From NCBI GenBank assembly GCA_016214955.1, contig JACRMN010000007.1:186001-250000 (forward strand): a stretch of 64,000 nucleotides of DNA. Direction: 5' to 3'. The notes beneath the pieces are model-generated. The model made no database searches and was not told the DNA's origin. It was given only the letters and a program-made list of their open reading frames with translations. This document shows, piece by piece, positions 6,274 to 27,381 of the stretch. The position numbers and the translations under genes are program-made. Positions within the stretch are counted from its first letter, which is position 1. The number at the start of each line of letters is the position of its first letter. This stretch comes from Deltaproteobacteria bacterium. Lineage in GTDB: Bacteria > Myxococcota > Myxococcia > Myxococcales > Anaeromyxobacteraceae.

Positions 6274-7266
6274 ATGTCCCGGACCAACAAGCAGTGGCTG
6301 CTGGCGCGCCGCCCGCAGGGCGCGGTCCAGCCCGCCGACTTCGAGCTGGTGGAGCGGCCCGTTTCGGCACTGGCCGAGGGTCAGCTCCTGGTTCAGCACC
6401 AGTACCTCTCCCTCGACCCCTACATGCGCGGCCGCATGGACGAGGCCAAGTCCTACGCGGCGCCCCAGCCGCTCGGCGAGCCCATGATCGGCGGCACGGT
6501 GGGCGAGGTGGTGGAGTCGCGCAACTCCTCCTTCCCGGTGGGAAGCCTGGTGGTGGGGATGGGCGGCTGGCAGCAGCTCTCCATCTCCGACGGACGCGGG
6601 CTCATGCCGGCGCCGCGCAACGTGCCCCCCTCGGTGTGCCTGGGCGCTGCCGGGATGCCGGGCGTCACCGCCTGGTACGGCCTCACCCAGATCGGCAAGC
6701 CGCGCTCCGGCGAGACGGTGGTGGTCTCGGCGGCGGCCGGCGCGGTGGGCAGCGTGGTCGGCCAGCTCGCCCGGCTGCGGGGCTGCCGGGCGGTGGGCAT
6801 CGCCGGGGGGCCGGAGAAGTGCCGCCACGTGGTGGAGGAGCTGGGCTTCGACGCCTGCCTCGACTACCGGGCGGCCGACTTCCGCGCCGCGCTCAAGGCC
6901 GCCGTCCCCGGCGGCGTGGACGTGCTCTTCGAGAACGTGGGCGGCGGGGTGCTCGACGCGGTCCTGGCCCGGATGAACGCCTTCGGCCGGGTGGCGCTCT
7001 GCGGCCTCATCGCCGGCTACGACGGCCAGGACATCGCCATCCGCAACGTCCGCCCCCTGCTCACCAGCCGGATCCTGGTGCAGGGCTTCATCGTCTCCGA
7101 CCACCTGGAAGTCTGGCCCGAGGCGCTGCGGGAGCTCACCGGGCTCGTGGCCGCGGGCAAGCTCAGGTACCGCGAGACGGTGGCCCAGGGGCTGGAGAGC
7201 GCGCCGCGGGCCTTCATCGGCCTCCTGAAGGGCGAGAACCTGGGGAAGCAGCTGGTGAAGCTGTAG
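6274..7266 (+). CDS. NADP-dependent oxidoreductase, zinc-independent MDR family
   Basis: A 330-residue cytoplasmic medium-chain dehydrogenase/reductase of the prostaglandin-reductase/CurA/YncB branch, which reduces carbon-carbon double bonds of enones or reactive unsaturated aldehydes with NADPH. The N-terminal catalytic domain has QWLLARRPQG and LSLDPYMRGRM, both hallmarks of the branch. The Rossmann domain has AAAGAVGSVVGQLARLRG (about residues 150-168) and the later ENVGGGVLDAVLARM block. The zinc-binding cysteines of alcohol dehydrogenases are absent. ATG at 6274 follows AGGAGG by 7 bp. It stands alone on the plus strand between the NosL cluster and the leftward acyl-CoA operon, so it may supply redox chemistry to either, or to xenobiotic enone detoxification. 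The exact substrate is unknown. Confidence 0.9.
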   Translation: MSRTNKQWLLARRPQGAVQPADFELVERPVSALAEGQLLVQHQYLSLDPYMRGRMDEAKSYAAPQPLGEPMIGGTVGEVVESRNSSFPVGSLVVGMGGWQQLSISDGRGLMPAPRNVPPSVCLGAAGMPGVTAWYGLTQIGKPRSGETVVVSAAAGAVGSVVGQLARLRGCRAVGIAGGPEKCRHVVEELGFDACLDYRAADFRAALKAAVPGGVDVLFENVGGGVLDAVLARMNAFGRVALCGLIAGYDGQDIAIRNVRPLLTSRILVQGFIVSDHLEVWPEALRELTGLVAAGKLRYRETVAQGLESAPRAFIGLLKGENLGKQLVKL

Positions 7267-7278
7267 ATCGCCCTGCCC

Positions 7279-8784
7279 TCAGTCCACCGCCAGCAGGGAG
7301 AGGTCGAGCGCCGCGCGCCGCCGCAGCCAGGGGCTGGGGCGGTAGCGCGGGTCGCCGGTGAGGGCCAGGAGGTTCTGGAGGATCTCCAGCACCGTGGCCG
7401 GGCCCAGCGCGTCGCCCCAGGCCAGCGGGCCCCGCGGGTAGCCGAGCCCCAGCACCACCGCCCTGTCGATGTCCCCGGGCGTGGCGATGCGCTGCTGGGC
7501 GATCTCGCAGGCGATGTTGACGATGGTGGCCACCACCCGCTGGGCCACCAGCCCGGGGCTGTCGCGGATCACCGTCACCGGCTTCCCGTCGGCACCCAGC
7601 AGGCCGCGGGCGGCCTCGCGCATCGCCGGGTGCGTGCCCGGGCTGGCCATGAGCACGCGGCGCTGGTCGAGGGGGAAGAGGGCGTCGGTGGCCACGGTGC
7701 GCGCCGCGTCGAGCCCCTCGCGCACCACCAGCGCGGTGACGTCCTCGCCCACCGGCGTCACCAGGCACAGGCTGGCGCCGTCGGGCGCCACCCCCTCGTC
7801 GAGGCGGGCTCCGAGCCGCGCGAGCAGCGCCACCACCCGCTGGCGCAGCGCCGGCCGGGCGTGGCTCACCCACACCCCCGCCGGCCGCTCGGCCGCGGGC
7901 GGGGGCTCGGGGCTGCGGATGGCGCCCTCGGGGCCGTAGGGGTAGAAGCCGTGGCCCGACTTCCGGCCCAGCAGCCCCGCGGCCAGCATCTGGCGGGTGA
8001 GCGGCTGGGGGCGGAAGCGCGGCTCCTCGTAGTACTGCCGGTAGACCGACTCCATCACCGGGTGGGAGACGTCGAGGGCGGTGAGGTCCATGAGCTCGAA
8101 GGGGCCGAGCTTGAAGCCGGCGGTGTCGCGCAGCACCCTGTCGATGTCCTCGACGCCGGCCACCCCCTCGGCCAGCAGCCGCAGCCCCTCCGTGCCCAGG
8201 CCGCGCCCGGCGTGGTTGACGAGGAAGCCAGGGGTGTCCTTGGCGCGCACCGGCGTGTGGCCCATGCGCTCGGCCAGGGCCACCAGCCCCTCGGCCACCG
8301 CCGGCGCGGTGAGCAGCCCCGAGACCACCTCCACCACCTTCATGAGCGGGACCGGGTTGAAGAAGTGGAAGCCGGCCACCCGCTCCGGCCGCGCCAGCCC
8401 CGCGGCCATGGCGGTCACCGAGAGCGAGGAGGTGTTGGTGGCGAGCGTGCAGCCCTCGCCGACGATGGGCTCGAGAGAGCGGAAGAGGGACCTCTTGGCC
8501 TCCAGCTCCTCGACGATGGCCTCCACCACCACGCCGCAGCCGGCCAGGCCGGTGAGGTCGTCGAGCACCGCCAGCCGGGCCACCGCCGCGTCGACCTCGG
8601 CGGCCGGCAGCTTCCCCCTTGCGGCCAGCCTGGCGAGGGCGGCGCCGATGGCGGCGCGCGCCTCCTCGGCCGCGCCCGGCCGGGCGTCGAAGAGGCGCAC
8701 CGGCAGGCCGGCCTGGGCGGCGATCTGGGCGATGCCGCGCCCCATGGCGCCGCAGCCCACCAGCCCCACCGTGGGCCCCGACAC
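7279..8784 (-). CDS. 3-hydroxyacyl-CoA dehydrogenase, long (PaaH/PaaC-like) form
   Basis: A 501-residue NAD-dependent 3-hydroxyacyl-CoA dehydrogenase, oxidising 3-hydroxyacyl-CoA to 3-oxoacyl-CoA in beta-oxidation-type pathways. The Rossmann motif is GCGAMG (residues 10-15). HFFNPVPLMKVVEVV is the catalytic region, with the conserved His of the His-Glu pair, and TPGFLVN starts the dimerisation domain. The length reflects a second copy of the C-terminal domain near residue 400 (DSPGLVAQRVVATIVN), as in the phenylacetate enzyme PaaH. GTG at 8784 lies 2 bp from the stop of the upstream acyl-CoA dehydrogenase gene, so all three genes to 11134 form one operon. The substrate is not determined by sequence; phenylacetyl-type or branched acyl-CoA are reasonable options. 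Confidence 0.92.
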   Translation of the reverse strand: MSGPTVGLVGCGAMGRGIAQIAAQAGLPVRLFDARPGAAEEARAAIGAALARLAARGKLPAAEVDAAVARLAVLDDLTGLAGCGVVVEAIVEELEAKRSLFRSLEPIVGEGCTLATNTSSLSVTAMAAGLARPERVAGFHFFNPVPLMKVVEVVSGLLTAPAVAEGLVALAERMGHTPVRAKDTPGFLVNHAGRGLGTEGLRLLAEGVAGVEDIDRVLRDTAGFKLGPFELMDLTALDVSHPVMESVYRQYYEEPRFRPQPLTRQMLAAGLLGRKSGHGFYPYGPEGAIRSPEPPPAAERPAGVWVSHARPALRQRVVALLARLGARLDEGVAPDGASLCLVTPVGEDVTALVVREGLDAARTVATDALFPLDQRRVLMASPGTHPAMREAARGLLGADGKPVTVIRDSPGLVAQRVVATIVNIACEIAQQRIATPGDIDRAVVLGLGYPRGPLAWGDALGPATVLEILQNLLALTGDPRYRPSPWLRRRAALDLSLLAVD

Positions 8785-20619: not shown

Positions 20620-20787
20620 CTACGCGGCCAGCTGCTTCTTCAGCTTGGTCTGCAGCTTCTTGGCCGCGTCGCAGTCCTCGCACTTGGCCGAGGCCTTCTT
20701 GGCGTGCACCTGGCACGTCTCCAGGCAGTTGCCCAGCGACTGGACCAGCATCCGCAGCTCCTTGGCCGACAGCTTCACCTCGGTCAT
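20620..20787 (-). CDS. Small four-cysteine protein of unknown function
   Basis: A 55-residue, lysine-rich helical protein. It contains four cysteines in two pairs, C21-x3-C25 and C36-x2-C39 (NCLETC, KCEDC), with a His at 28, and ends KKLQTKLKKQLAA. The pattern suggests a helical hairpin that binds a metal or forms disulfides. ATG at 20787 has GAGGAG upstream at proper distance; the frame is open farther upstream without a start as good. It is the last gene of a leftward run that includes thioredoxin reductase and thioredoxin. No family recognised with certainty; ferredoxin-like four-helix Cys proteins are an alternative. Confidence 0.7.
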   Translation of the reverse strand: MTEVKLSAKELRMLVQSLGNCLETCQVHAKKASAKCEDCDAAKKLQTKLKKQLAA

Positions 20788-20913: not shown

Positions 20914-21858
20914 TCACCGGGCCGCCACCGGCTTGTGGTCCTTCACGTACTTCTGGGCGGCCAGCGCCGCGATGGTGCCGTCGGCCACCGCGGTGGTGAT
21001 CTGGCGGAACTTCTTCTGGCGCAGGTCGCCGGCCACGTAGAGCCCCGGCACCTGCGTGGACATGTCCTCCTGCGTCTCCACGTAGCCCCAGGGGTTGAGC
21101 GGCAGGAGCCCCTTCACCAGGTCGGCGCGGGGGACGTAGCCGATGAACACGAAGACGCCGTCGGTCGCGAGCTCGGTGACCTCCTTGGTCTTCACGTTCT
21201 CGATCTTGAGCTTGTCCAGCCCCTTCTCGCCCAGGAACTCCCGCGGCTCCGAGTCCCAGATCACCTTGATCTTGGGGTGGTGCAGCGCCTCCTCGGCGAT
21301 GGCCGCCTCGGCCTGGAAGTGGTCGAACTGGTGGATGATGGTGACGCTGCGGGCGAACTGGGTGAGGAAGAGCGACTCCTCCACCGCCGAGTTGCCGCCG
21401 CCCACCACGTGGATGTCCTTGCCCTCGAAGTAGGCGCCGTCGCAGGTGGCGCAGTAGCTGATGCCGCGCCCCTTGAAGCGGGACTCGCCCGCCACGCCCA
21501 GGTCGCGAGGCTTCGCGCCGGTGGCGACGATGACCGCCGGGGCCTCGACCTCCTCCTCCTCGTCGAGCTCGAAGCGCTTCACGGGACCCGAGAGATCGTG
21601 CTTGGTGATCTCCACCGCCCGCCGCACCTTGGCGCCGAAGCGCTCCGCCTGGGCGGAGAAGGCCTTGGCCAGGTCGGTGCCCTTCACGTCCTCGGGGAAG
21701 CCGGGATAGTTGGAGACCTTGTGGGTTGTCTTCACCTGTCCACCGGGGACGCTCTCGTCGAGCACCAGCGTCTTCAGGCGGGCCCGGGATGCGTAGATGG
21801 CTGCCGTGAGGCCGGCCGGTCCGGCGCCCACCACGATCACGTCGTACTTCTCTGCCAT
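20914..21858 (-). CDS. trxB: Thioredoxin-disulfide reductase
   Basis: A 314-residue FAD/NADPH flavoenzyme reducing thioredoxin. The FAD motif is GAGPAGLTAA (residues 11-20), the redox pair is CATC (C136, C139), the NADPH motif is GGGNSAVEES and the FAD C-terminal motif is YVAGDLRQKKFRQITTAVADG. Length and order match low-Mr TrxB. ATG at 21858. The thioredoxin gene 23 bp upstream forms its operon partner. Together with adjacent Cys-rich mini-proteins this looks like a dedicated reductant supply rather than the housekeeping pair, though that is inference. Confidence 0.92.
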   Translation of the reverse strand: MAEKYDVIVVGAGPAGLTAAIYASRARLKTLVLDESVPGGQVKTTHKVSNYPGFPEDVKGTDLAKAFSAQAERFGAKVRRAVEITKHDLSGPVKRFELDEEEEVEAPAVIVATGAKPRDLGVAGESRFKGRGISYCATCDGAYFEGKDIHVVGGGNSAVEESLFLTQFARSVTIIHQFDHFQAEAAIAEEALHHPKIKVIWDSEPREFLGEKGLDKLKIENVKTKEVTELATDGVFVFIGYVPRADLVKGLLPLNPWGYVETQEDMSTQVPGLYVAGDLRQKKFRQITTAVADGTIAALAAQKYVKDHKPVAAR

Positions 21859-21881: not shown

Positions 21882-22217
21882 CTAGCCCAGCATCGCCTCG
21901 ACCTGGGCCTTGATGGCGGTGCGCTTGATGTCCTCGCCGCCGAGCCGCTCCCCCACCTCCTGCCCGTTCTTGAAGAAGACGAGGGTGGGGCTCCCGGTCA
22001 CGCCCAGCTTGCTGGCGAGGTCGCGGTTGCCCTGGCGGAAGATCTTGAGGAATGTGGCCTTGCCGGCGAACTGCTCGGCGACCGCCTCGTACTTGGGGGC
22101 GAGGGCCTCGCAGGGCGGGCACTCGGTGGAGAAGAAGTCGAGGACCACCGGCCCGGCGGCCTGGGCCACCTCCCGCTCGTATTCGGCGCCGGTGATCTCC
22201 TTCACGTGCTGGCTCAT
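21882..22217 (-). CDS. Thioredoxin-like protein with ECPPC active site
   Basis: A 111-residue cytoplasmic thioredoxin. The active site is TECPPC (C33, C36) instead of the standard WCGPC, and the cis-Pro motif is VTGSPTLVFFKNGQEV. The lack of Trp and Gly in the active site suggests a changed redox potential or partner. The ATG at 22217 is preceded by AGGAG; the frame upstream would extend to 22328 without a signal. It begins the thioredoxin/TrxB leftward unit. Relatives with CPPC sites occur in selenium and arsenic gene neighbourhoods, which fits the ArsM-like gene nearby, but this is weak evidence. Confidence 0.9.
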   Translation of the reverse strand: MSQHVKEITGAEYEREVAQAAGPVVLDFFSTECPPCEALAPKYEAVAEQFAGKATFLKIFRQGNRDLASKLGVTGSPTLVFFKNGQEVGERLGGEDIKRTAIKAQVEAMLG

Positions 22218-22332
22218 GATCGGGTCTCCTGGAGCGCCGTTGGCTCGCGCTCGTCTCGTCCCGTGGGAGCCAGCATCGTGCGGGAGGAGTCGCGCACCGT
22301 GCCGCGGCGCCGCGCCGCGCGACCCCATAGAC

Positions 22333-22358
22333 GGAGGGCCGCCTCGCGGCGGCCCTCC
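22333..22358 (-). terminator. Strong terminator hairpin downstream of the Cys-rich peptide gene
   Basis: Perfect 11-bp arms GGAGGGCCGCC (22333-22343) and GGCGGCCCTCC (22348-22358) close a TCGC tetraloop. It lies 25 bp after the stop codon of the 33-residue gene and 115 bp before the thioredoxin start. The stem has no T-tract, common in very GC-rich genomes. It would make the peptide gene a separate monocistronic unit. Confidence 0.6.
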
Positions 22359-22382
22359 GGATACCTCTTCGACCAGCGGGAG

Positions 22383-22484
22383 CTAGTCGTGGCAGCCCGA
22401 CACCAGCCGGGAGGCCTTGGCGCAGCACTGCGCGACCTTCTCGGCCGTGCAGCAGGACGCCTTGGGCTTCGTGAGCAGCTTCAT
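22383..22484 (-). CDS. 33-residue cysteine-rich peptide; candidate RiPP-like precursor
   Basis: A very small gene, MKLLTKPKASCC followed by TAEKVAQCCAKASRLVSG and CHD. Its cysteines are paired: C11-C12, C20-C21, then C31. ATG at 22484 has GAGGAGG directly upstream, 6 bp away. A strong hairpin follows the TAG stop, so it is transcribed on its own. It is divergent from an ArsM-like methyltransferase and a radical SAM/SPASM protein whose starts lie 124 and 794 bp away. A short basic leader-like N-terminus and clustered Cys near the C-terminus fit a substrate of a peptide-modifying radical SAM enzyme. A metal-binding or copper/arsenic chaperone peptide is an alternative. No database family was checked. 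Confidence 0.65.
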   Translation of the reverse strand: MKLLTKPKASCCTAEKVAQCCAKASRLVSGCHD

Positions 22485-22607
22485 GCTTCCTCCTCTCGGG
22501 CTCGGCTTCTCCGCCCGAGCATCCCATGGGAGCCTCGGGGGAGGGCGAGGATTCCTGGCGCGCGGCGAATCCTCCGTTCGCCGCCTGGCTCTCCCTGGAG
22601 GAGACCA

Positions 22608-23261
22608 ATGTCCCGTCGTGACGACACTTTTCGCGGTCGCGTGGCAGGCGCCACCCAGGCCCGCTACGACGGCCTCTCCACCGCCGGGTCGAGCCTCTCC
22701 TGCGGCGGCGCCCTCGACGACGCTGCCCCGCTGCCGGGCGAGACGGTGGTGGACCTGGGCTGCGGCCGCGGCGGCGACGTGGTGAAGGCCGCCGGGCGGG
22801 TGGGCCCCTCGGGCGCGGCGGTGGGCGTGGACGCGAGCCCCTCGATGCTGGCCGTCGCCCGCGAGCGGGCCGCCGGACATCCGCAGGCCCGCTTCGTCGA
22901 GAGCGACCTCGCCGCAGTGGCGCTACCCGACGGGCTCGCCGACGTGGTGGTCTCCAACTGCGCCATCAACCACGCGCCCGACAAGGCCGCCGTCTACCGC
23001 GAGATCCACCGGTTGCTGCGGCCGGGCGGCCGCTTCGCGGTCTCCGACGTGGTGTCGGAGGCGGAGCTTCCCGCCGCCGTGCGCGAGGACCCCGCCGCCT
23101 GGGCCGCCTGCTACGGCGGCTCCATCCCCGAGGCCGAGTACCTGGCCGCCATCGCCGCCGCCGGCTTCGCCGAGGTGGCCGTGCGGCGCCGCACCGAGCC
23201 CTACGAGAAGGGCGGCGTCCTCGTCCGCAGCATCACCGTGGAGGGGCGCCGCGCGCCCTGA
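22608..23261 (+). CDS. ArsM-like SAM-dependent methyltransferase
   Basis: A 217-residue class I methyltransferase. The SAM motif VVDLGCGRGGDVVKAA is near residues 47-62, and the fold continues with VGVDASPSMLAVARERA, LLRPGGRFAVSDVV and a C-terminal VLVRSITVEG. The pattern resembles arsenite methyltransferases. SNCAINHAPDK corresponds to their SNCVINL.PDK with a substrate cysteine, and AACYGGSIPEAEYL to the CxGGA region with a second cysteine. A third Cys lies early, in SLSCGG. These three sites suit As(III) or another soft metalloid or thiol. ATG at 22608 follows GGAGGAG by 4 bp. The radical SAM gene follows after 16 bp, so the two are an operon. Peptide or small-thiol methylation cannot be excluded. 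Confidence 0.85.
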   Translation: MSRRDDTFRGRVAGATQARYDGLSTAGSSLSCGGALDDAAPLPGETVVDLGCGRGGDVVKAAGRVGPSGAAVGVDASPSMLAVARERAAGHPQARFVESDLAAVALPDGLADVVVSNCAINHAPDKAAVYREIHRLLRPGGRFAVSDVVSEAELPAAVREDPAAWAACYGGSIPEAEYLAAIAAAGFAEVAVRRRTEPYEKGGVLVRSITVEGRRAP

Positions 23262-23277: not shown

Positions 23278-24630
23278 ATGAAGCTCTCGCGCCACGCCAT
23301 CCTCGCCCCCGTCTCCGGCCGCCCGGAGGTCCTGCTGGTGCAGCCGCTCTCCGGCCAGGCGGCGCTGCTCGAGCCCGGCCACGCCGAGGCGCTGCGGGCG
23401 CTGACCGGCGGCGGCGCGCTGCCCGCCGGCCTGCCCGAGGAGACGCTGCGTCAGGCCGGCTTCGTGGTGGACGGCGAGGTCGACGACGACCGGCTCCTGG
23501 CCGGCGCCCGCGCCGAGTGGAAGGAGGAGGCCTCGAAGACGCCCACCCAGCTGGTGGTGGTGCCCACCTTCGGCTGCAACCTGGCCTGCAGCTACTGCTA
23601 CCAGGAGCTCTTCGACCCCACCGCCCAGGGGCTCATGGCCCCCGAGGTCATCGACGCCTTCTACGCCTGGGTGGAGCGCCACCACGGCGGCGACTCGCCC
23701 CGCCCCTACGTCACCCTCTTCGGCGGCGAGCCGCTGCGCGACACCCCCGCCCACCGCGACCGCATCCTCCGCTTCCTCGCCGGCGCCCGCCGGCTGCGGC
23801 TGCAGGTGGCGGCGGTGACCAACGGCAACGACCTGGCCGCGCTGGTGCCGCTCCTCGCCGAGGGGCCGGTGAAGGAGATCCAGGTCACCCTCGACGGCCC
23901 GCAGGCGCTGCACGACCGGCGCCGCCCTCACAAGGGCGGCGCCGGCACCTTCGCCCGCATCGTCGAGGGCGTCGATGCCCTGGTGGCCGCGAAGATCCCG
24001 GTCAACCTGCGGGTGGTGGCCGACCGCGAGAACCTCGACGCCCTCCCGGAGCTGGCGGAGTTCGCCGCGGCCCGGGGCTGGCTCGATCTCCCCTCCTCCC
24101 GCTTCAAGACGCAGGTCGGGCGCAACTACGAGCTCTTCGGCTGCGCCAGCCGCCAGGAGAAGGGCGCGCTCTTCGACCGGGTGGAGCTCTGGGCCCGCTA
24201 CGTGGAGCTCTCCGAGGCTCACCCCATCCTGCGCCGCTTCCACCAGCCCCGCTTCCACGGCATGGGCCACCTGGCCGACACCGGCGAGCTCCCCGCCCCC
24301 AACTTCGACGCCTGCCCGGCCGCCAAGAAGGAGTGGGCCTTCGGGCCCGACGGCAGCGTCTACGGCTGCACCGCCACCGTGGGCCACCCGGCCCACCGGC
24401 TGGGCCGCTTCCACCCCGAGCTGGTCCGCGACGAGGAGGCCATCGCCCGCTGGCAGGGGCGCAGCACCCTCTCGGTGGAGGCCTGCCGGGGCTGCTCGCT
24501 CGCCCCGGTGTGCGGCGGCGGCTGCGGCGCCATCGCCTGGAGCCAGAAGGGCAGCGTGCTGGCCCCCGACTGCCGGCCGGTGCCGGAGCTCTACGGCCTG
24601 GGGGCCCGCTACTACGGCCTCGGGGCCTGA
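23278..24630 (+). CDS. Radical SAM/SPASM protein, peptide-modifying type
   Basis: A 450-residue radical SAM enzyme. An N-terminal domain of about 90 residues (MKLSRHAILAPV...) precedes the [4Fe-4S] motif C100-x3-C104-x2-C107 (CNLACSYCYQE). The TIM barrel contains LFGGEPL (SAM-binding Gly-Gly-Glu), VTNGND and VTLDGPQALHDRRRP, a hallmark of the SPASM peptide maturases. The C-terminal region carries many cysteines for auxiliary clusters: FDACPAAKKEWAFGPDGSVYGCTAT, then CRGCSLAPVCGGGCGAI and APDC. This architecture is that of anaerobic sulfatase maturases and RiPP maturases, not of lipoate or biotin synthases. The N-terminal domain resembles leader-binding domains of RiPP maturases. It is co-transcribed with the ArsM-like gene and lies next to the Cys-rich peptide gene, making the peptide a good candidate substrate. 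Confidence 0.88.
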   Translation: MKLSRHAILAPVSGRPEVLLVQPLSGQAALLEPGHAEALRALTGGGALPAGLPEETLRQAGFVVDGEVDDDRLLAGARAEWKEEASKTPTQLVVVPTFGCNLACSYCYQELFDPTAQGLMAPEVIDAFYAWVERHHGGDSPRPYVTLFGGEPLRDTPAHRDRILRFLAGARRLRLQVAAVTNGNDLAALVPLLAEGPVKEIQVTLDGPQALHDRRRPHKGGAGTFARIVEGVDALVAAKIPVNLRVVADRENLDALPELAEFAAARGWLDLPSSRFKTQVGRNYELFGCASRQEKGALFDRVELWARYVELSEAHPILRRFHQPRFHGMGHLADTGELPAPNFDACPAAKKEWAFGPDGSVYGCTATVGHPAHRLGRFHPELVRDEEAIARWQGRSTLSVEACRGCSLAPVCGGGCGAIAWSQKGSVLAPDCRPVPELYGLGARYYGLGA

Positions 24631-25315: not shown

Positions 25316-26155
25316 CTACGGCTCGGGCAGGTGGCGCTCGCCCGGTCCCTCGTAGCGGTAGGGGATGGCGCGGGGCATGGGCCCCTTGTTCCGCTCGCCG
25401 GTGCCGCTCTGCTCCCAGGCGTGCGCCAGGATGCCGACGCCGCGGGCCAGGCAGAAGAGGCCGCGCGCCAGCGGGGGTGCGAAGCCCAGCTCGCCGTAGA
25501 CCACAGCGGTGGCCCCGTCGATGTTGAGCGGGATGTGGCGCCCCTTGCGACGCTCCAGCGCCGCCTCGCAGGCGCGCGCCACCTCGGCGAGCCGGCCGGA
25601 GACCAGCCCTGCCGCTCGCGCCTCCTCCACCAGCGCCAGCAGCCGGCCCGAGCGCGGGTCCACCGGGTGGAAGCGGTGGCCGTAGCCCGGCAGGTGCTCC
25701 TCGCCCTCGCGGGCCGCCACACCGATGGCGCCGGTGACCGCCTCGTCGAGCCCCTGGCCGGTGGCGCGGAGCGCCTCGATGCGTAGGAAGAGCTCCAGCG
25801 CCTGCTGGCCGGCGCCGCCGTGGACGTCTCCGAGGGCGTTGATCGCCGAGGCCATGGCGCCGTTGAGCGGCAGGCCGCAGGAGACGGCGCTGCGGGCGAT
25901 GGCGATGGCCGGGGCCTGCGGGCCGTGGTCCACCGAGGCCACCAGCGCTGCCTCGAGCAGCCGGGCCCGCCGCGGATCGGGCAGCTCCCCGCGCAGGAGC
26001 AGCCACAGCACCTCGGCGAAGCCGGCCCGGCCGATGAGCTCCTCGATGGGGTAGCCGCGCAGCCCGATGTGGCCGGGCCGGATCTCGGTGATCGAGGTGC
26101 GCCAGTAGCGGGCTGCTTCCTCGAGGAGCGCGGCGGCGTCGGGGGCTTCGCTCAT
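25316..26155 (-). CDS. Citryl-CoA lyase-like protein (citrate synthase fold)
   Basis: A 279-residue protein homologous to citrate synthase and to the Ccl type citryl-CoA lyase of reductive TCA bacteria and the C-terminal part of ATP-citrate lyase. The fold elements are RPGHIGLRGYPIEELIGRAGFAEVLWLLLRGELP, the His motif DVHGGAGQQALE, GYGHRFHPVDPRS (active-site His) and NIDGATAVVYGELGF (Asp). The size is that of Ccl rather than of a full citrate synthase (about 430 residues). It overlaps the upstream CoA-transferase gene (ATGA), so the two act together. A plausible reaction is cleavage of citryl-CoA or a related 2-hydroxy-polycarboxyl-CoA to acetyl-CoA plus an oxo-acid. The direct product is not proven. 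Confidence 0.85.
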   Translation of the reverse strand: MSEAPDAAALLEEAARYWRTSITEIRPGHIGLRGYPIEELIGRAGFAEVLWLLLRGELPDPRRARLLEAALVASVDHGPQAPAIAIARSAVSCGLPLNGAMASAINALGDVHGGAGQQALELFLRIEALRATGQGLDEAVTGAIGVAAREGEEHLPGYGHRFHPVDPRSGRLLALVEEARAAGLVSGRLAEVARACEAALERRKGRHIPLNIDGATAVVYGELGFAPPLARGLFCLARGVGILAHAWEQSGTGERNKGPMPRAIPYRYEGPGERHLPEP

Positions 26156-27381
26156 GGCTTCCCTTTCCGGGCCGGATCGGGGCGCGGGGCGGCCACCACC
26201 CCCCGCCTCGCCAGCCCGTCGATCTCCCCCTCGGTCCAGCCCAGCTCCAGCAGCGTCTCGCGGGTGTGCATGCCCAGCACCGGCGGCGGCACCGGGTCCG
26301 GAAAGGGCTCACCCAGCAGGAAGCCGGGCCGGGTGATGCGGGCCTTCCCACCGCCCGGGACCTCCACCTCCTCGACGAAGCGGCGGCCGGCGACCTGGGG
26401 CTTCTGCAGGATGGCGTCCACCCCCAGCACCTGGCCGGCGGGCACCCCGTGGCGCGTGAAGAGCTCCTCCCACTCGGCCGCCGAGCGGGTGGCCAGCTTC
26501 TCGCACAGCACCTTGCGCAGCGCCTCGCGATGCAGGAGCCGCACCCGCCGGTCGGCGAACCGCGAGTCGTGCTTCAGCTCCGGCAGGCCGGTGAGGTCGC
26601 AGAGGGTCTCGAACTGCTTCTGCTCGTTGGCCGAGATGTTGAGGACGCCGCTGCCGGTGGGGAAGGTGCCCGAGGGCACGGCGGTGACGTTGTCGTTGCC
26701 CATGGGAGCGGGCGCCACGCCGGTGTTGAGGAAGTTGCCCACCACCCAGCCCATGGCCGCCAGGCTGGCCTCCAGCAGGGAGACGTCGATGTAGCGCCCG
26801 CGGCCGCTGGCCCGCTGGTCGAGCAGCGCGGCGGTGATGGCGAAGGCGGCGGTCATCCCGCCGAGCGTGTCGCACACCGGGAAGCCCACGCGCAGCGGCG
26901 CCGAGGCCGGATCGCCGGTGACGGCCATCATCCCCGAGAGCCCCTGCACGATCTGGTCGTAGGCCGGGCGGTGGGCCCAGGGGCCGGTCTGGCCGAAGCC
27001 GGAGATGGCGCAGTACACCAGCCGGGGGTTGCGCCGCGCCAGCAGCGGGTAGTCGAGCCCCAGGCGCGCCATCACGCCGGGCCGGAAGTTCTCCACCAGC
27101 ACGTCGGCCCGCTCCACCAGCTTGAGGAAGATCTCCTTCCCCTCGCGCTGCTTCAGGTCCACCGCCACCGAGCGCTTGCCCGAGTTGGCGGCCAGGAAGG
27201 AGAGGCCCATCTGCCGCCCGGCCAGGGCGGCGTCGGCCCCCAGCTCGCGGGCCAGGTCGCCACCGTCGGGGTTCTCGATCTTGGTCACCCGCGCGCCGAG
27301 CCGCGCCAGCTGGTAGGCGCAGAAGGGCCCGGCCAGCACGTTGGTGAGGTCGAGCACCCGCACGTCGTGCAACGGCATCAT
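26152..27381 (-). CDS. CaiB/BaiF family CoA-transferase
   Basis: A 409-residue class III CoA-transferase. The N-terminal region has VRVLDLTNVLAGPFCAYQLARLGARVTKIENPDGGDLARELG, and the catalytic Asp is in the segment near residue 155-165. FLAANSGKRSVAVDLKQREG and RPAYDQIVQGLSGMMAVTGDPASAP are family blocks. It transfers CoA between acids and acyl-CoAs. The linked lyase suggests that it activates a di- or tricarboxylic acid (for example citrate or a malate derivative) for cleavage. ATG at 27381 with ordinary upstream sequence. The pair is separated by about 7 kb from the main acyl-CoA cluster. Confidence 0.9.
   Translation of the reverse strand: MMPLHDVRVLDLTNVLAGPFCAYQLARLGARVTKIENPDGGDLARELGADAALAGRQMGLSFLAANSGKRSVAVDLKQREGKEIFLKLVERADVLVENFRPGVMARLGLDYPLLARRNPRLVYCAISGFGQTGPWAHRPAYDQIVQGLSGMMAVTGDPASAPLRVGFPVCDTLGGMTAAFAITAALLDQRASGRGRYIDVSLLEASLAAMGWVVGNFLNTGVAPAPMGNDNVTAVPSGTFPTGSGVLNISANEQKQFETLCDLTGLPELKHDSRFADRRVRLLHREALRKVLCEKLATRSAAEWEELFTRHGVPAGQVLGVDAILQKPQVAGRRFVEEVEVPGGGKARITRPGFLLGEPFPDPVPPPVLGMHTRETLLELGWTEGEIDGLARRGVVAAPRPDPARKGKP

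Follow-up and report, generated by a model that had tools for sequence, protein, structure and literature searches.

The gene at positions 22383..22484 on the minus strand of the window, i.e. of the 64-kb stretch of DNA that was analysed, encodes a cysteine-rich peptide of 33 aa, which we consider with good confidence to be the precursor of a radical-SAM RiPP that belongs to a new class. The peptide and the gene cassette to which it belongs point to modified thiol peptides of a kind not described before in the Myxococcota, in which the core cysteines are probably cross-linked. Coding selection on the frame, near-exact co-occurrence of peptide and enzyme, the operon, the predicted fold and the conserved residues are direct results; from these we infer the modification of the peptide, its chemistry, the order of the steps and the function.

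The reading frame starts with ATG at 22484-22482, ends with TAG at 22385-22383 and is translated into MKLLTKPKASCCTAEKVAQCCAKASRLVSGCHD. As the sequence-only reading had claimed, the start codon is led by GAGGAGG. This strong ribosome-binding site (22485..22500, minus strand) is located just 5' of the ATG, with AAGC as spacer. The cysteines occupy the claimed positions 11, 12, 20, 21 and 31, and their number is indeed improbable by chance: the window has 471 start codons from which a frame of 25-45 aa runs to a stop, and five or more cysteines were found in a single one of these frames, namely that of the peptide itself. Searches of the 2025-2026 copies of Pfam and NCBIfam returned no model match for the peptide, and the divergent peptide of locus L084 had none in Pfam. 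A known peptide family was ruled out by these empty searches, a paralogue within the same genome was rejected on account of matches at chance level only, and a known RNA element was rejected after an empty Rfam search of the window.

Looking at the retention of the frame in relatives, we found the peptide in full length in 16 of the 24 genomes of the Anaeromyxobacteraceae family set. A profile search of 195 genomes of the phylum detected it in 23 (E <= 1e-4; weaker matches look like chance), and these carriers span seven family-level groups. One genome (G014) harbors two copies, and the copies in the contig collection include those of Anaeromyxobacter oryzae, A. terrae, A. oryzisoli and A. soli. 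The test for selection proposed by the sequence-only reading was run on the final 18 codons of 22 sequences and gave a pN/pS of ~0.22, which indicates coding constraint; the third codon position is variable in 15 of the 18 codons, the first in 6 and the second in 5. Since the frame is conserved with mostly synonymous substitutions, we regard it as a gene. Its shortness and the lack of a Pfam or NCBIfam match would suit a chance open frame, but conservation of this degree across seven family-level groups, together with ribosome-binding sites and fixed gene partners, makes this explanation exceedingly improbable, and it was rejected on conservation.

The N-terminal half of the peptide varies in both length and sequence among homologues and is followed by a fixed C-terminal core, AQCCAKASRLVSGCHD, for which the invariant pattern is AQCCAKxSxxxxGCHD. 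In the distant relatives L084 and L085 the cysteines 11 and 12 are missing and only positions 20, 21 and 31 are kept. The first pair is therefore dispensable, and exactly three core cysteines (C20, C21 and C31) are invariant. A variable N-terminal part joined to a fixed core is the leader/core layout expected of a RiPP precursor. A ranthipeptide spacing of the CX3E type (C11 to E15) was dropped as a candidate feature because the spacing differs in L031 and L035.

A G+C-rich hairpin (22331..22359, minus strand) with a 12-bp stem and a 4-nt loop begins about 25 nt past the stop codon of the peptide, between the peptide gene and the thioredoxin gene. The hairpin announced by the sequence-only reading is real and correctly placed, with a stem of 12 bp instead of 11 bp, but its description as the gene's own terminator is unproven: in the window the T-run is absent and a terminator scan did not report the structure. 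For these two reasons a canonical intrinsic terminator was rejected, and the hairpin is likely to be an attenuator or an RNA-end signal rather than a proven terminator; it may only limit read-through. Relatives likewise have a G+C-rich hairpin in the equivalent position, built from another sequence.

The peptide gene is part of a cassette of five to six genes. On the same strand it is followed by the genes of a thioredoxin, a thioredoxin-reductase-like flavoprotein and a 55-aa cysteine protein, and the facing operon on the plus strand encodes a methyltransferase and a radical SAM enzyme. The sequence-only reading had correctly noted an oppositely oriented enzyme operon and a short, overlooked and selected cysteine-rich gene; this gene is not an autonomous unit beside unrelated enzymes. 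Within the 195 phylum genomes the radical SAM enzyme was present in 24 (E < 1e-100), 23 of which also contain the peptide, and no genome contains the peptide without the enzyme (Fisher p ~5e-29, a figure inflated by shared ancestry). In the single exception, G017, the enzymes are present and neither the peptide nor the 55-aa protein was detectable; perhaps this is due to an assembly gap.

Four distant genomes (G070, G068, G029 and G193) have a single operon in the order methyltransferase, peptide, radical SAM enzyme, thioredoxin and reductase, with the peptide gene directly upstream of the radical SAM gene. In the family of the window the gene order is shuffled and the peptide is often encoded on the strand opposite to the enzyme, but the set stays together. 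The held-out locus L077, which was found by the enzyme alone, encodes MKLLTKPRKNKVCCAPTAEKAAQCCAKASKLISGCHD as its peptide, along with every other member of the cassette. An alignment search of the contig collection with the radical SAM enzyme yielded 17 loci, all of them with titles of Myxococcota or delta-/proteobacterial MAGs, and a plasmid search yielded two distant maturases (~31%). Such a cassette was absent at L086 and L087, which encode more distant enzymes (32% identity). A literature search found no description of such a cassette, and TIGR04463, geopeptide and DUF5714 were not named in the papers searched.

The radical SAM/SPASM enzyme (23278..24630, plus strand) resembles RiPP maturases. 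The CX3CX2C motif (C100/C104/C107) is invariant across the cassette maturases, as are seven SPASM cysteines (C346/C364/C403/C406/C412/C416/C432); an eighth invariant cysteine, Cys289, lies in a poorly modelled loop. Two features general to radical SAM/SPASM RiPP systems were found, the CX3CX2C and SPASM cysteines of the enzyme and the adjoining short precursor gene with its variable leader and conserved core. The AlphaFold model of the maturase has a mean pLDDT of 89.9, and the closest structure is CteB (5wgg; Z 27.9, rmsd 3.5, 392 of 450 residues, model positions 4-450), with the N-terminal regions included in the alignment. In the model this region consists of strands (E8-31) followed by helices (H33-85), which is the reverse of the element order described for the RRE (PMC7470986), so that the label RRE-like rests on the match with CteB. 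CteB possesses an N-terminal RRE and, acting on CteA, forms a thioether between Cys and Thr (PMC8326336). As the model is closest to CteB, thioether formation is the first guess for the chemistry of the maturase, by analogy.

The system is similar to the ranthipeptides/SCIFF (CteA with CteB) in the short cysteine-rich precursor, the radical SAM/SPASM maturase and the overall fold, including the N-terminal region. In contrast to SCIFF, with six cysteines in forty-five residues, the peptide of the window has five in 33, L084 and L085 have fewer, and the precursors across cassettes have three to five. The maturase reaches 61.9 bits with the SCIFF maturase model TIGR03974 (cut-off 425), and the cassette contains a methyltransferase, a thioredoxin and a reductase beyond the CteA/CteB pair. 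In NCBIfam the top hits of the maturase are without exception RiPP maturases, namely the TIGR04463, CefA/CefB and geopeptide-maturase groups, and all are far under the curated cut-offs (131.4 vs 525, 129.3 vs 600 for CefB and 116.6 vs 400 bits). In the annotated TIGR04463 example the partners are a radical SAM C-methyltransferase and a CefA-type peptide gene (~2 kb) rather than a 33-aa peptide. Because the peptide has no Pfam or NCBIfam match and the maturase is far below every curated RiPP family, an uncatalogued RiPP class is likely. It looks like one with an unusual gene set, consisting of an ArsM-like methyltransferase and a dedicated thioredoxin/reductase pair.

The interpretation as a RiPP precursor is favored because peptide and enzyme co-occur across seven family-level groups with no peptide alone, because the peptide lies directly 5' of the enzyme in distant operons, because L077 carries the complete set, and because a constant core follows a leader that varies and is able to lose its CC pair. 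The CteB-like maturase model, the invariant cysteines and the RiPP maturases as best NCBIfam matches argue in the same direction. What weighs against it is that the conserved neighbours of the cassette include no recognisable leader peptidase or exporter, that G017 has no detectable peptide, that gene order and strand vary in the family, and that strands and helices of the N-terminal region are reversed relative to the described RRE.

The thioredoxin (21882..22217, minus strand) has a CPPC active site and the reductase-like flavoprotein (20914..21858, minus strand) a CATC active site; both accompany nearly every complete cassette. The HRR motif is a feature of NADPH-dependent relatives of thioredoxin reductase. 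The flavoprotein of the window has HQF in its place, and in all cassette copies CATC is kept and HRR is replaced by HQF or NQF, so the sequence suggests that its electron donor may differ from that of the NADPH enzymes. The 55-aa protein (20620..20787, minus strand) is a predicted helical hairpin with four cysteines in CX3C and CX2C motifs. It was detected in 17 of the 195 genomes, each of them with the cassette, once on a separate contig, and in many relatives its gene is just upstream of the peptide gene. It had no match in Pfam, and a Foldseek comparison of the predicted hairpin with the PDB gave nothing significant, a negative that is not to be taken as evidence of a new fold. As main substrate it was rejected, being absent from several cassettes. 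At L036 (G014:C365) and L034 (G016:C98) the genes of the peptide and the 55-aa protein are paired, away from the remaining cassette genes.

Five cysteines in 33 residues, the adjoining thioredoxin and reductase genes and this second small cysteine-rich protein in many of the same genomes would also fit an unmodified redox or metal-binding peptide of metallothionein type, kept reduced by thioredoxin while the radical SAM enzyme acts elsewhere. We regard this as quite improbable: nothing accompanies the radical SAM enzyme as constantly as the peptide, which is encoded directly before it in distant operons, the enzyme is CteB-like, and several cassettes lack the 55-aa protein.

The methyltransferase (22608..23261, plus strand, 217 aa) shares with ArsM (CmArsM, PRK11873) the core and three cysteines, C32, C118 and C168, that align with Cys72, Cys174 and Cys224 of CmArsM and are invariant in 23 of 23 cassette methyltransferases. 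In the CmArsM structures the latter residues bind As(III). They are conserved cysteines of CmArsM (PMC7248198). With curated ArsM (PRK11873) the window enzyme reaches 176 bits, below the cut-off of 263, it covers only residues 71-247 of the 377-aa ArsM, and unlike ArsM it is tied to a RiPP-type cassette. A further methyltransferase of the ArsM-like type, which carries a long insertion, is encoded in the same genome (L096) and at L083 (6477-7121, minus strand), ~1 kb from the cassette.

The retention of all three As(III)-binding cysteines makes a link to metalloids conceivable. The three core thiols of the peptide could bind As(III) or a similar ion, which the ArsM-like enzyme would methylate, with the reducing power supplied by thioredoxin. 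Once locked by the radical SAM enzyme, the peptide would be one that handles or contains a metalloid. The invariant triad, the exactly three invariant core cysteines and the regular presence of thioredoxin and reductase agree with this proposal. We nevertheless consider it unlikely, in view of the score below the ArsM cut-off, the partial coverage and the lack of recognised ars genes among the conserved cassette neighbours. In addition, two of these three cysteines are also present in the ArsM-like paralogue encoded elsewhere in the genome; the triad is therefore a mark of the ArsM clade and not necessarily of arsenic. Rather unlikely is also the combined form, a RiPP with a soft metalloid, in which a CteB-like cross-linked three-thiol peptide would be charged with arsenic or a similar element, or deliver it to the ArsM-like enzyme, with the cassette's own thioredoxin system as reductant.

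If the peptide is a RiPP precursor, its short N-terminal leader (MKxL...) would dock on the radical SAM/SPASM enzyme at its RRE-like N-terminal region. The enzyme would then cross-link at least one of C20, C21 and C31, most likely by thioethers as in CteA/CteB. Thioredoxin and reductase would keep the cysteines of the peptide reduced, or later take the product as redox partner. The ArsM-like enzyme would modify the peptide or a soft metalloid held by its thiols, and read-through past the peptide gene is probably curbed by the hairpin, so that the precursor would outnumber the enzyme. The lack of a recognised exporter or peptidase and the dedicated thioredoxin pair suggest that the product is an internal thiol, redox or metal cofactor or a metal(loid) ligand rather than a secreted antibiotic. 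Because the genes are small and present in named Anaeromyxobacter strains, chemistry and function are open to direct test.

Several relatives have additional genes near the cassette. A DUF5714 protein is encoded beside it at L082 (~6950-7700) and 3' of the radical SAM gene at L021, L025, L026, L028 and L035; there is no DUF5714 match next to the cassette copy of the window. A protein of the FAD-dependent pyridine-nucleotide-disulphide oxidoreductase family is located nearby at eight loci (e.g. L027, 4415-6316, and L025, 12406-13587, both minus strand), and a DUF6125 protein adjoins the cassette in some relatives. In the window, the region 25316-27381 (minus strand) encodes a citryl-CoA lyase family protein, over the NCBIfam cut-off, with an adjoining CoA-transferase family gene.
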